Of a stretch of DNA of 64,000 bases, positions 40,790 through 44,551 are shown piece after piece. Position numbers and translations under genes: made by a program. Source of the stretch: Idiomarina aquatica (GTDB lineage: Bacteria; Pseudomonadota; Gammaproteobacteria; Enterobacterales; Alteromonadaceae). Where the stretch lies: the NCBI RefSeq assembly GCF_004362895.1, contig NZ_SNXI01000004.1:1-64000 (forward strand). Direction: 5' to 3'. A model generated the notes under the pieces. That model was not told the origin of the DNA. It did no database searches and saw only the letters and a program-made list of their open reading frames with translations. Within the stretch, counting starts at the first letter, position 1. Each line of letters begins with the position of its first letter.

Positions 40790-42334
40790 ATGGCATTTGC
40801 ACAACTACATTGTGTTGAGTCTTTGACTCAGGCAAAAGAAAACGAACAAACCGACGCACTGATTGTGATGGGTCCATTTGACCGGGTTGAAGACACTGAG
40901 CTGAGCGAAGCTATTCGTGCGGCGCAACAGAGCGACCAGCGTGTGGGTAAAGAGACCTTGTTGTTATTGCAGACTGACGTGCCGGGTAACCGGTTGGTGG
41001 TTGCGCCAACCGGACCGCTGAATCGTGATTATGACGATGTACGACAAATTTTTGATGCCGCAGCCAAGGCCGCGAAAATAGCGCAGGACGCCGGTGCACG
41101 CCATCCGGTATTGATGTTAAATGCGGTTGATACCCAGGACGAACGGTATCAGCAAGCGTACCTTGCCGCCTATCTGGGTTTTTGCCAGGCACTGTATCAG
41201 CCGTTAGAGGCGCGCGAAGCCCATGGCGAGGACGAGATTGAGCCGACTAAAGCGGTAACCCTGGTGGGTGCGCTGAATGCCGATTGGGCAATGGCGGTTG
41301 AGGCCGGTAAACGGGTAGCGCGTGATTTAGCCGGTACCGAACCTGAGCGGATGGCACCACCACGGTTTGCGGAATATTGCCGTCAGGCGTTTGCGCATAC
41401 ACCAGTAAAAGTAACAGTGATTGACGATTATCAGCAGTTACAGCACGAATATCCATTGGCGGCGGCCGTTGGTCGTGCATCGATCGAGGTCGAACGCCAT
41501 CGTCCCTGCGTTATTCGATTAGAATACAAAGGCGCGAACCCTGAACGCACGGTGATGTTTGCCGGTAAGGGTATTGTTTACGATACCGGTGGCGCTGACC
41601 TTAAGGTGGGCGGCCACATGGCAGGCATGAGCCGTGACAAGGGCGGCGCCGCTGCGGTTGCTGGTTTTGTGAAAACGGTTGCAGAAGTGCAGCCGGATAA
41701 TATTAACGTGATTGCGGAAATTGCCGCGGTACGCAACAGCATTGGCTCTGACGCCTTTGTCGCCGACGAAATTATTACCGGCCACAGCGGTAAACGAGTG
41801 CGCATTGGTAATACCGATGCCGAAGGGCGTCTGGCCATGGCTGACCTGTTGTCGCATCTGCGTGAAGAAGCCGCCGCCAGTGAAGTGCCGTGCGACTTAT
41901 ACACGGTAGCGACGTTGACAGGACACGCGGCGCTGTCCAAAGGTCCCTATTCGGCGTTAGTACCTAATGGTGCGGCACGCAAAGCACAGGTAGCCCAGCA
42001 GTTGTTTGAGCAGGGCGAAGTATTCGGCGATCCGGCTGAGATCTCCTGGTCACGCCGCGAAGACTTTGATTTTGTTAAAGGGCGCACGTTGTGTGATGAC
42101 TTGCTGTCGTCAAACAATGGCCCGTCGGCAACAACCGCGCGCGGACACCAGTTCCCAATGGCGTTTTTAGTCGGCGTATCGGGTCTGGATGCTCACGGTA
42201 TTGATAGTGACAAACCACTGAACTACGTGCATGTGGACATCGCCGGCAGCGGTGTTGAAGGCGGTGACTGGCAACACGGCAAGCCAACGGCAGCACCGGT
42301 AACGATGCTGGCAGGGCACTACCTGCGGAAATAA
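40790..42334 (+). CDS. M17 family leucyl aminopeptidase-like protein
   Basis: Cytosolic aminopeptidase of 514 residues. The M17 signature NTDAEGRL is present, and the first metal-site region reads GKGIVYDTGGADLKVGGHMAGM, with Lys, Asp and the GM end kept. The N-terminal domain is unlike standard PepA, so it belongs to a divergent M17 branch. AGGAGG is a strong ribosome site. Probably cotranscribed with cysS. A hairpin array begins 1 bp after the stop. Confidence 0.85.
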   Translation: MAFAQLHCVESLTQAKENEQTDALIVMGPFDRVEDTELSEAIRAAQQSDQRVGKETLLLLQTDVPGNRLVVAPTGPLNRDYDDVRQIFDAAAKAAKIAQDAGARHPVLMLNAVDTQDERYQQAYLAAYLGFCQALYQPLEAREAHGEDEIEPTKAVTLVGALNADWAMAVEAGKRVARDLAGTEPERMAPPRFAEYCRQAFAHTPVKVTVIDDYQQLQHEYPLAAAVGRASIEVERHRPCVIRLEYKGANPERTVMFAGKGIVYDTGGADLKVGGHMAGMSRDKGGAAAVAGFVKTVAEVQPDNINVIAEIAAVRNSIGSDAFVADEIITGHSGKRVRIGNTDAEGRLAMADLLSHLREEAAASEVPCDLYTVATLTGHAALSKGPYSALVPNGAARKAQVAQQLFEQGEVFGDPAEISWSRREDFDFVKGRTLCDDLLSSNNGPSATTARGHQFPMAFLVGVSGLDAHGIDSDKPLNYVHVDIAGSGVEGGDWQHGKPTAAPVTMLAGHYLRK

Positions 42335-42335
42335 C

Positions 42336-42514
42336 GGCTTTTTGCGCCTTCGGCGCGGCCGTTTGTGCCTACGGCACGGCTGTTTTTAGCGTGCCTTCGG
42401 CCGCTAAGGCTGTTTGCCTGACGGCGGTAAAAGCCGTGCGTAGCACAAACAGCCGCAACGAGCGCAGCGATGTTGCAAACAGCCGTCGCGAAGCGACAAA
42501 AAGCCGGCCGAAGG
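42336..42514. repeat. Left hairpin array flanking olsF
   Basis: Eight short palindromes joined by 8-nt spacers. Hairpins include GCGCC-TTC-GGCGC, GTGCC-TAC-GGCAC, a larger TTAGCG...CGCTAA, GTGC-GTA-GCAC, GCAAC...GTTGC, GTCGC-GAA-GCGAC and GGCC-GAA-GGCC. Spacers are GGCTTTTT, GGCCGTTT or GGCTGTTT in the first half and AAACAGCC or AAAAAGCC in the second, so the two halves are complementary. Positions 42378-42484 reappear inverted at 44348-44454. Confidence 0.9.
42378..42484 (+). repeat. 107-bp inverted repeat, left arm
   Basis: Aligned by eye, the reverse complement of this segment matches 44348-44454 over the full 107 bp with two mismatches. The arm consists of whole hairpin modules, starting and ending in a GGCTGTTT/AAACAGCC spacer. 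About 1.86 kb lies between the arms, containing olsF. Confidence 0.9.
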
Positions 42515-42578
42515 CCATTCATCTTAGTGTCATAAAATCGGCTTAGGCTGTTCTTATCGCAACGATGAGGACAGCCCC

Positions 42579-44270
42579 ATGTTGAACGTAGAAGACGTTG
42601 TCAAACAGAGCCTGCCGCGTATACACAATACACCCTGGCTGGCCAAACCCACCACTTGGTTTTTACGCAACTTGCTGCACGAAAGCGATATTCGTGACTT
42701 TAGTCAGCACTATCCTGAACTTAATGGCATCGACTTTGTTGAGCAGGTGCTCGATTATTTTAATTTTTCTTATGCTTACCGCAGTAGTGAGCTGGATAAT
42801 ATTCCCAGTCGAGGGCGGGTTATTATATTTGCCAACCATCCGATTGGCTCACTCGACGGTTTAGCCTTACTAAAATTGGTCAGCGAAGTGCGCAGCGATG
42901 TAAAAATTGTCGCCAACGATCTGCTGATGAAACTAAAACCGCTGCAATCAATGCTATTACCGGTACGCGTGTTTAACGGCTCTTCGGGCCGCGATGATAT
43001 TCGTAATATGCACCAGCATTTAAACAACGAGGGCGCGGTTATTGTTTTCCCTGCCGGCGAGGTTTCGCGCTTGCGACCCCAGGGAGTCAGGGATACGCGT
43101 TGGCAGCAAGGGTTTGTTAAGTTAGCCAAGCGCTGTGAGGCACCGTTATTACCCATTCGTCTGTACGCCCACAATTCGGCGTTATTTTATACCGCCTCTA
43201 TGGTTTACAAACCATTGGCGACCTTATTGTTGGTGAAGGAGATGTTCCGCCAACAGCGTAAACACGTCAGTTGCCGTATTGGTGAGCTGATTCCGTACCA
43301 GGCGCTGGAAACGATGCGTCTGTTGCCGATAAAACAACAACTTAAACTACTAAAAAAGCACCTTTACCGGCTGGGCAGTCAAAAGGAGCTGATTTTACCC
43401 ACCCAAACGGCGGTGGCGAGGCCTGAGCCGCGCCAAACGTTAAAGCAGGCTATTGAGCAGTGCGAGCAACTGGGTACTACCGCCTGCGGTAAGCGGATTG
43501 TCTTGTATGAGTTTAACGGTAGCTCGCCGATTTTGCGTGAAATTGGCCGTTTACGCGAAGTGGCATTTCGGGCAGTCGGCGAGGGCACCTGGCAGCGCCG
43601 CGATCTGGATGACCATGACCGTTATTATATGCACCTTATTCTGTGGGACCCTGATGACCTTGAAATCGCCGGTGCGTATCGGCTGGGAGACTGCGCAAAG
43701 ATCCTGCAAAAGGTCGGCTCAAACGGACTTTATACTATTGCATTTTATCAATTTGATACGGCGATATTCGATATTCACGCGCAGGGTTTAGAGCTGGGGC
43801 GTTCGTTTGTACAACCACGCTACTGGGGTAAACGCAGCCTCGATTATTTGTGGCTGGGGATTGGTGCGTTATTAAAACAGCGGCCGCAGTATCGCTATTT
43901 ATTTGGCTCGGTCAGTATCAGTAACGCCTTGCCGGATCCGGCGACAGAAGCCTTAGTCGCGTTTTATCGTCACTACTTTCCGCCCGTGCATCCACAGCTT
44001 GCCACAGCAAATCATCCCTACAATCCGGAGGCGAAACACTTTCGGCTAACGGGTTGTTACGAACAGGACTTTTGCGATTTAAAAAGCTATCTGGCATCGA
44101 TGGGAGCAGCAATACCGACGTTATATAAGCAGTATGCAGATTTGTGCGAAAAGGGCGGCGTACAGTTTTTAGCGTTTGGCGTCGATCCGGACTTTTCCAA
44201 TTCCATCGACGGACTGGTGCTGGTGGATATTACTAAATTAAAGCCGAAGAAGCGCAAACGATATCTCTAG
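42579..44270 (+). CDS. olsF: Bifunctional ornithine lipid synthase OlsF-like (acyltransferase plus GNAT)
   Basis: Protein of 563 residues with two acyltransferase domains. The N-terminal half is a PlsC-like O-acyltransferase: ANHPIGSLDG (H87, D93), GRDDIRNM and FPAGE (157-161). The C-terminal half from about 290 is an OlsB-like N-acyltransferase (LREVAFRAVGEGT, DLDDHDRYYMHLILWD). This order matches OlsF of Serratia, which makes ornithine lipids by acylating ornithine and then lyso-ornithine lipid. Ornithine lipids replace phospholipids under phosphate limitation. The gene is bracketed by hairpin arrays, so its promoter must lie within the left array or the 64 bp after it. Confidence 0.82.
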   Translation: MLNVEDVVKQSLPRIHNTPWLAKPTTWFLRNLLHESDIRDFSQHYPELNGIDFVEQVLDYFNFSYAYRSSELDNIPSRGRVIIFANHPIGSLDGLALLKLVSEVRSDVKIVANDLLMKLKPLQSMLLPVRVFNGSSGRDDIRNMHQHLNNEGAVIVFPAGEVSRLRPQGVRDTRWQQGFVKLAKRCEAPLLPIRLYAHNSALFYTASMVYKPLATLLLVKEMFRQQRKHVSCRIGELIPYQALETMRLLPIKQQLKLLKKHLYRLGSQKELILPTQTAVARPEPRQTLKQAIEQCEQLGTTACGKRIVLYEFNGSSPILREIGRLREVAFRAVGEGTWQRRDLDDHDRYYMHLILWDPDDLEIAGAYRLGDCAKILQKVGSNGLYTIAFYQFDTAIFDIHAQGLELGRSFVQPRYWGKRSLDYLWLGIGALLKQRPQYRYLFGSVSISNALPDPATEALVAFYRHYFPPVHPQLATANHPYNPEAKHFRLTGCYEQDFCDLKSYLASMGAAIPTLYKQYADLCEKGGVQFLAFGVDPDFSNSIDGLVLVDITKLKPKKRKRYL

Positions 44271-44551
44271 CGCCTGACGGCGCGGCTTTTTGCCCCTGAC
44301 GGGGCGGCTTTTTGTGCCTACGGCACGGCTGTTTGGCCCTTCGGGCCGGCTGTTTGCAACATCGCTGCGCTCGTTGCGGCTGTTTGTGCTACGCACGGCT
44401 TTTACCGCCGTTAGGCAAACAGCCTTAGCGGCCGAATGCACGCTAAAAACAGCCGCAGCGCAGCTGCAAAGGGCCGGCCCGCAGGGCCAAACAGCCGTCG
44501 CGAAGCGACAAAAGGCCGCAGCGCAGCTGCACACAGCCGCGCCGCAGGCGC
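44270..44551. repeat. Right hairpin array flanking olsF
   Basis: Thirteen modules fill the whole gap between the olsF stop and the convergent M28 peptidase stop. Hairpins include GCGCC-TGAC-GGCGC, GCCCC-TGAC-GGGGC, GTGCC-TAC-GGCAC, GGCCC-TTC-GGGCC, GCAGC-GCA-GCTGC (twice), GGCCC-GCA-GGGCC, GTCGC-GAA-GCGAC and GCGCC-GCA-GGCGC. Spacers are GGCTTTTT or GGCTGTTT up to about 44404 and AAACAGCC-type after it. Stems differ from one module to the next while spacers are kept. The first hairpin begins on the last base of the olsF stop codon. Confidence 0.92.
44348..44454 (-). repeat. 107-bp inverted repeat, right arm
   Basis: Inverted partner of 42378-42484, two mismatches in 107 bp by eye. It spans five internal hairpins and six spacers. 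Confidence 0.9.

Follow-up and report, generated by a model that had tools for sequence, protein, structure and literature searches.

Hairpin arrays around olsF in Idiomarina and their possible link to a repeat system with S23 (PF05635) proteins

The locus described here raises the question of why a gene should be bracketed on both sides by long arrays of small hairpins, and whether such arrays have a partner protein. The window, which is the whole analysed stretch of 64,000 nt from Idiomarina aquatica (contig NZ_SNXI01000004.1), contains an olsF-type gene. A first-pass annotation had pointed out that the gaps on both sides of this gene are filled by hairpins alternating with an 8-nt spacer, GGCTGTTT or its complement AAACAGCC, a design for which it could name no known element. 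The answer proposed here, to which we give an even chance, is that the olsF arrays are copies, dispersed and lacking the gene, of a repeat system with two parts, the repeats themselves and an S23 (PF05635) protein.

Structure of the olsF arrays and their loop rule

Direct reading of the sequence confirmed both arrays, with eight hairpins to the left of olsF and 13 to the right (Table 1). The left array starts 1 bp past the pepA stop codon (TAA, 42332-42334), and the first hairpin of the right array overlaps the final base of the olsF stop codon (TAG, 44268-44270), which agrees with the earlier claim that the arrays begin at or 1 bp after a stop codon; the right array ends 4 bp short of the stop codon of the convergent peptidase gene. 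When both strands were counted, GGCTGTTT was present at 12 sites in the window versus 2.8 expected, and 10 of the 12 lie within the two arrays. The segments between spacers were analyzed in 21 stretches (the window and L046-L065), at lengths of 9-26 nt, with at most one mismatch per spacer and without requiring palindromy. They were almost exclusively 13-16 and 21-23 nt long, and in the 51 segments of 13 nt, 234 of 255 outer positions were paired, as compared with a mean of 140 and a maximum of 163 when the 3′ arms were re-dealt 1000 times. Both the spacing and the palindromy of the olsF arrays are far above chance.

Two types of modules are present. The short module consists of a 13-nt hairpin and the 8-nt spacer, and the long module contains a 21-23-nt hairpin with a bulge or internal loop and adjoins the array centre; the units of Idiomarina arrays are 21 bp (13+8) and 29-31 bp. 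In both olsF arrays the spacer flips to its complement in the middle, as had been noticed before. GGCTGTTT points to the array centre, the long modules are innermost, and the outer spacers are frequently GGCTTTTT. By our own count, + units precede - units in all 15 arrays or half-array pairs that hold both orientations. The suggestion that each array can also fold on itself as a whole is supported by the folding energies calculated for DNA, which were -121.9 kcal/mol (z -11.6) for the right array and -60.7 kcal/mol (z -6.1) for the left one. A scan of the window against Rfam gave 0 matches at the gathering threshold.

One part of the initial description, the almost free variation of the stems, has to be given up, because the loop-closing pair and the loops follow a rule, and identical stems are found again at many loci. 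The loop-closing pair was C-G in 73 of 77 units. Of the 75 units with loops of 3-4 nt, 67 fitted GNA or GNNA when read on the AAACAGCC strand (GNA in 60 of 67, GNNA in 7 of 8), in a collection gathered via spacer and stem, with the loop sequence not used as a criterion. According to passages of PMC4686876, the rule for extraordinarily stable DNA mini-hairpins is a GNA or GNNA loop together with two or more G-C pairs, and d(GCGAAGC) has a melting temperature of 78 C. Since the stems obey this rule, their variation is not free, and since the loops obey it, folded single-stranded DNA is probably the form in which the array acts.

S23 genes within hairpin arrays and heptamer repeats

The first-pass annotation had also proposed a search for a co-occurring nuclease or a gene like that of the transposase (RAYT) associated with repetitive extragenic palindromes (REP). 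A co-occurring gene does exist, but it is of neither kind, as the gene within the arrays encodes a PF05635 four-helix-bundle protein. At the rpsT-murJ junction a gene lies between two separate half-arrays, and in Idiomarina seosinensis CL-SP19 (G001) this gene encodes a PF05635 protein. In the window's genome (G000) the half-arrays surround a nucleotidyltransferase-domain (MNT-like) gene (L049, 18928-19221). In I. aquatica SN-14 (G004) no PF05635 match was found at rpsT-murJ, and an S23 copy with half-arrays lies on the other side of murJ. Altogether, PF05635 was detected at eight places in 5 of 19 genomes of the genus. One of them (L164, in G010) is a match under the family cut-off, in an Avd-like frame at an apparent diversity-generating retroelement (DGR), with two near-identical segments on both sides of the frame that differ mainly at A-rich codons. 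The seven S23 genes not associated with a DGR belong to G000, G001, G004, and G018; as judged by eye, six of them are flanked by hairpin arrays left and right, and L161 has an array on one side. The density of triloop hairpins around the S23 genes was 2.9-10.7/kb, versus 1.4-2.2/kb in 27 fixed-place stretches.

The spacer, read by eye at these loci, tracks the subtype of the S23 protein. The 75% identical proteins L166 and L167 are accompanied by GGCTGTTT, and L162 from G018, which is 51-56% identical to them and encoded at a different locus, by GGCTGTG. The spacer is TTGCTTGGC for L160 and L161 (76% identical) and GGTTTGGGC for L163 and L165 (56% identical). The same protein family is found between inverted repeats in the intervening sequences (IVS) of 23S rRNA that carry an S23p open reading frame (ORF), which occur in Coxiella and also in other organisms. 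A PF05635 gene inside inverted repeats characterizes the wider design, not the olsF locus itself; unlike the IVS, which lie in 23S rRNA and are excised by RNase III, the arrays described here are long, have many dispersed copies without the ORF, and are located outside rRNA, at protein-gene junctions such as rpsT-murJ.

Thirty S23 sequences had in common the positions Q-R-S-P-NIAEG-R-S-E-T, and no HUH or DDE pattern was evident in them by eye. The structure model of L167 (pLDDT 96) matched best 2gsc (XCC0516) and 2rld; the DGR protein Avd (4dwl) ranked behind these two, with a TM score of 0.70 and sequence identity of 12%. The homology between S23 and Avd has been published (in part of PMC10053308), and the knowledge of S23/IVP proteins goes back to the 1990s, according to a portion of PMC4990558. 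To our knowledge, no function is known for S23/IVP proteins.

Outside the genus, hairpin arrays were found near S23 genes in just one of 40 loci of the class, and therefore heptamer repeats were tested. The class set comprised 40 of 61 listed PF05635 places with wide flanks, and the family, phylum, and ParE control sets had 30 loci each, one per genome, taken with the best scores first, so these samples favour high-scoring genes; at a few sampled loci, located at contig ends, the flanks were shorter. The class and family sets gave rise to the heptamer hypothesis; the loci of the phylum set and of the ParE control were drawn later. The coverage by repeated 7-mers was abandoned as a statistic, being dominated by composition, and counts of the top heptamer together with Tandem Repeats Finder were used instead. 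The top heptamer was present in at least seven copies at 13/40 class loci and 9/30 family loci, versus 35/723 windows. Period-7 repeats were detected in 54/80 flanks of the class set, 36/60 of the family set, and 44/60 of the phylum set, compared with 2/60 ParE flanks and 116/1516 windows elsewhere in the S23 stretches (phylum set versus ParE, Fisher test on flanks, p = 1.5e-16). Counted by locus, at least one side had such a repeat at 34/40, 23/30, and 28/30 loci, respectively (85 of 100 for the three PF05635 sets pooled), versus 2/30 for ParE. Among the 49 loci with period-7 repeats on both sides, the repeats were inverted at 39, direct at five, tied at two, and unrelated at three.

Heptamer arrays are also dispersed in these genomes. 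More than 2 kb from S23 genes, 56 period-7 arrays of at least 3.5 units were counted in 571 kb (9.8 per 100 kb), versus one in 248 kb (0.4 per 100 kb) of 20 S23-negative genomes (p = 3e-8), a contrast tempered by the fact that the latter are other species compared without control for phylogeny, some of their stretches being short contigs. For period-7 arrays of any length the numbers were 97 versus 8 (17.0 versus 3.2 per 100 kb), which is about a fivefold difference, while period-8 arrays differed little (40 versus 11, p = 0.11). The dispersed units matched the heptamer of the local S23 gene in 28 of 90 cases, as compared with a permuted mean of 4.6 and a maximum of 16 in 500 permutations.

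The S23 genes of ten public plasmids (nine cyanobacterial, one from Gemmatimonadota) were examined with flanks of 600 nt. Period-7 repeats were present in nine of the ten flank sets, on both sides in six, and clearly inverted in four of these six. The S23 gene of Nostoc edaphicum pNe_5 is surrounded by AGTAGGG and TCCCTAC, and in the Gemmatirosa record the heptamer unit lies 411 bp from the S23 gene; the tested flanks of the L391 gene had no period-7 repeat. Three of the ten plasmid S23 genes are located among CRISPR-Cas genes (L387, L391, and L394, from Anabaena sp. 90, Picosynechococcus PCC 7003, and Pseudanabaena galeata).

These repeats are of the same kind as short tandemly repeated repetitive (STRR) sequences, such as GGGAATC in Xanthomonas, GGGGA(C/T)T in Nostoc, and TAACTGA in Beggiatoaceae. 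According to a section of PMC6344855, heptamers are more abundant than any other intergenic repeat across a broad range of prokaryotes, and nothing points clearly to their function. In the IVS of C. burnetii, tandem GACAGAT heptamers lie beside the S23p ORF, and their number varies between strains (PMC4990558, in the portion cited above). Among the papers that a literature search listed, this one came nearest, and none connected PF05635 to dispersed arrays of heptamers or hairpins. Neither PMC4679880 nor PMC4692102 contains the terms four helix, S23, or intervening. The Idiomarina arrays differ from STRR in that they lack the 7-bp period, the spacer in the window having 8 nt and alternating with mini-hairpins. 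Two loci from other genera bridge the two designs. At L237 an S23 gene lies between 8-nt spacers AGTGACTA and TAGTCACT with 6-bp triloop hairpins, a flip, and some 14-nt double spacers. At L239, which is again the rpsT-murJ junction, ACGAACA heptamers are mixed with the mini-hairpins GCGCAGC and GCGAAGC.

Spread and turnover of the arrays

The expectation that such arrays, with the spacer kept, also occur at the ends of further genes and in related species was borne out within a narrow lineage. A DNA similarity search of 60 genomes found arrays only in G000, G001, and G004, in which GGCTGTTT arrays are dispersed. A covariance model of the short module (R1) gave 26, 18, and 17 matches in these three genomes at E <= 0.001, two matches in G009, and none in the other 15 of the 19 genus genomes. 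With stricter limits, the same four of 295 family genomes had matches, and other genera had none. Three related species of Idiomarina thus carry the array family, and a fourth shows a trace of it. A pattern scan that covered 84,980 species, each represented by one genome, gave 41 stretches, of which nine came from I. seosinensis and I. aquatica, and the remaining 32 contained a single match each and no array by eye. About ten array loci were met in G000. The arrays are intergenic and often near stop codons, and some lie 5′ of genes. One in G000 (at C13:71948) is directly adjoined by a ParE-type toxin gene (L318, G000:C13:71626-71892). A second hairpin-array family has a TTGCTTGGC-type spacer and is tied to the S23 genes L160 and L161; its arrays occupy some junctions that hold a GGCTGTTT array in a sister species.

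OlsF matches were found in 17 of 19 genus genomes, and of those 17 only G000 and G004 have the gene flanked by arrays. By eye, G008, G009, G013, and G018 have the same gene order with a single ordinary terminator per olsF junction, and in I. seosinensis (L123) olsF has the opposite orientation between the same neighbours, pepA and the peptidase gene, with no array; there the stop codons of olsF and pepA abut or overlap. Because the sister genomes have none at olsF, the arrays would have arisen or arrived in the G000/G004 line, or have been lost elsewhere. Between G000 and G004, the core together with its two flanking long modules is inverted in situ at each olsF junction, and the number of modules differs. 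In I. seosinensis four identical 21-bp units have one mismatch common to all, which is a sign of tandem duplication. Together, the duplication and the inversions uphold the idea of a growing or shuffling system. Compensated stems were likewise found. Homologous arrays beside tuf in G000 and I. aquatica G004, which are at neighbouring junctions on opposite sides of the gene, are 79% identical over 258 bp and contain a paired stem change, from GTTGC/GCAAC in G000 to ATTGC/GCAAT in G004 or the reverse. Like olsF in G000, a tuf-like (EF-Tu) gene has arrays on both sides in I. seosinensis and in I. aquatica G004; in G000, contig C24 ends and C32 begins inside this gene, with a 95-bp identical overlap. 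In 21 comparisons of syntenic junctions, judged by eye and partly reciprocal, the same spacer family was present in 12, another repeat family or sequence in eight, and none in one; the remaining queries were without synteny in the stretches examined.

Table 1. Features of the olsF arrays and related loci (positions in the window unless a locus is named)
Feature	Position	Strand	Details
Left array, pepA/olsF gap	42336..42516		8 hairpins; spacers in order: four + (GGCTTTTT, GGCCGTTT, GGCTGTTT, GGCTGTTT), three - (AAACAGCC, AAACAGCC, AAAAAGCC)
Left short modules	42344..42377	+	GCGCC(TTC)GGCGC, GTGCC(TAC)GGCAC, spacer between
Left long bulged module	42386..42407	+	TTAGCG-TGCCTTCGGC-CGCTAA, innermost of + half
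Left core	42416..42446		31 nt, two small hairpins
Left - half	42455..42516	-	long GCAAC...GTTGC, GTCGC(GAA)GCGAC, GGCC(GAA)GGCC; spacers AAACAGCC/AAAAAGCC
olsF-type gene	42579..44270	+	acyltransferase and GNAT domains; bracketed by arrays
Right array, olsF/convergent peptidase gap	44270..44551		13 hairpins, spacer flip past core
Right + half	44270..44377	+	GCGCC(TGAC), GCCCC(TGAC), GTGCC(TAC), GGCCC(TTC), long GCAAC...GTTGC
Right core	44386..44416		31 nt, near-perfect reverse complement of left core
Right - half	44425..44551	-	long TTAGC...GCTAA, GCAGC(GCA), GGCCC(GCA), GTCGC(GAA), GCAGC(GCA), GCGCC(GCA)
tuf-like gene with bracketing arrays	L156 5424-6608; L055 5841-8167; ends of L050 and L051		
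TTGCTTGGC-type arrays	L047 6478-6793; L049 16957-17174; L055 5841-6046; L059 4279-4349; L061 1195-1272		
RAYT loci of the genus	L108, L107, L109-L114, L117, L115, L118, L120		group B: L115, L118, L120

Proposed mechanism and its alternatives

In the two-part system, the S23 protein, encoded between two inverted half-arrays, would be the second part. Outside the genus, most of the examined loci have a tandem heptamer as the repeat, and in the Idiomarina lineage the repeat is the 8-nt spacer alternating with GNA-loop mini-hairpins. When an array becomes single-stranded, as lagging-strand template or in a gap, its AAACAGCC strand could fold into very stable GNA hairpins, and S23, which probably forms oligomers and lacks its own catalytic site, would bind the folded repeats. 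The bound protein may favour re-annealing and template switching between arrays, with copying by the host polymerase, and this switching would add, remove, invert, and move modules and so drive the spread of the repeats. Since template switching across a hairpin restores the pairing, stems would change in pairs. A broader proposal, which we regard as tentative and less probable than the first, is that PF05635 is a general driver of bacterial tandem heptamer arrays in several phyla, without a nuclease or transposase of its own, and that the Idiomarina olsF arrays are an elaborated form of them that acts as folded single-stranded DNA.

Several observations weigh against these proposals. Hairpin arrays at one of 40 class loci are not a general S23 feature, and 15 of the 100 S23 loci have no period-7 repeat. 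The Idiomarina stretches contain two period-7 arrays in 540 kb (0.37 per 100 kb), and one of the seven S23 loci of the genus has a period-7 repeat; because there is no heptamer excess in Idiomarina, the hairpin and heptamer forms are joined only by the gene and by the two intermediate loci. Within the genus, only two of the seven S23 genes lie in GGCTGTTT arrays, the other five having spacers of their own, and the hairpin count at L163 is barely above the background. The only S23 gene found in G000 is of another subtype, and G009 has two array units and no S23 gene. The independent cases of matching subtype and spacer number about four, because three subtype pairs are orthologous or local copies. 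In a DNA energy model both strands of four modules had equal energy, with no strand preference, so the proposed preference relies on the published measurements. S23 might merely insert into repeats made by something else.

The last possibility leads to the explanation that no dedicated protein is involved, and that polymerase slippage and template switching alone grow the arrays, in which S23 genes insert or survive as passengers. The identical tandem units with their common mismatch, the in-place inversions, and the arrays in G000 without a cognate S23 gene are all consistent with it, but it leaves unexplained the match of spacer and S23 subtype at different loci (L162 versus L166/L167), the specificity of period-7 repeats for S23 over ParE genes, and the excess of heptamer arrays in genomes where S23 occurs, and we consider it unlikely, though the best of the alternatives. 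The arrays could also be a REP family moved by a RAYT (Y1) transposase. They resemble REP, BIME (bacterial interspersed mosaic elements), and REPIN sequences, as described in part of PMC8266576, in being dispersed intergenic palindromes in inverted pairs, with a partner gene flanked by its own repeats and folded single-stranded DNA as the likely substrate, and the bulged long module is REP-like too. They have, however, no GTAG-type tetranucleotide 5′ of a conserved palindrome; instead the spacer GGCTGTTT/AAACAGCC is conserved and the stems of different modules are unrelated, and the partner is a PF05635 helical bundle, not an HUH transposase. The RAYT genes of the genus form two groups, A with GTAG-type REPs and B with a different REP (GTACCC... 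at L115). Group B is present in G000, G001, and G004 and absent among the matches of the 16 other genus genomes, a co-occurrence that may count only once because OlsF identity puts these three genomes closest together. The group-B genes have their different REP alongside and no exact GGCTGTTT within 1.5 kb. In the 1.5-kb flanks of 14 PF01797 matches from 11 of the 19 genomes no array with the GGCTGTTT spacer was found, two of them containing a single exact GGCTGTTT/AAACAGCC. On this reading of the flanks RAYT was rejected as the partner gene, and we think this origin improbable.

A similarly low probability is given to the arrays being selected bidirectional transcription terminators, multiplied at gene ends for strength. 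The single terminators at both olsF junctions of the four sister species speak for it, as does the number of terminator-like sites between 42250 and 44650, which is 16 (11 within the arrays) compared with 4.0 in shuffles; yet a single hairpin is enough in the sister species, arrays are found 5′ of genes and at many further junctions as well, different repeat families swap at the same junction, and the S23 genes within arrays are left unexplained. Terminator activity may be a by-product. It is hardly more plausible that the repeats are S23-bound regulatory sites, in RNA or DNA, kept for gene regulation and not as a selfish system. The intergenic siting, often near stop codons, would suit such a role, and regulatory roles have been proposed for intergenic TAACTGA heptamers in a part of PMC4679880, but closely related species differ at the junctions in the presence, family, and module order of the arrays, which fits turnover and not conserved regulation. 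Relation to CRISPR or TIGR arrays is not indicated, as their spacers or guides are not self-complementary and the variable parts here are palindromic. Mitochondrial double-hairpin elements, or mobile hairpins, are short hairpins that likewise spread in intergenic DNA and have compensated stems; we know of no conserved spacer array or partner gene for them.

If the S23 proteins are indeed the second part of the repeat system, the link ties together two unexplained things, the heptamer arrays and the S23/IVP proteins, and a new type of hairpin array gains a candidate partner. It also suggests that repeats or hairpins beyond retroelements are targets of Avd-fold proteins.

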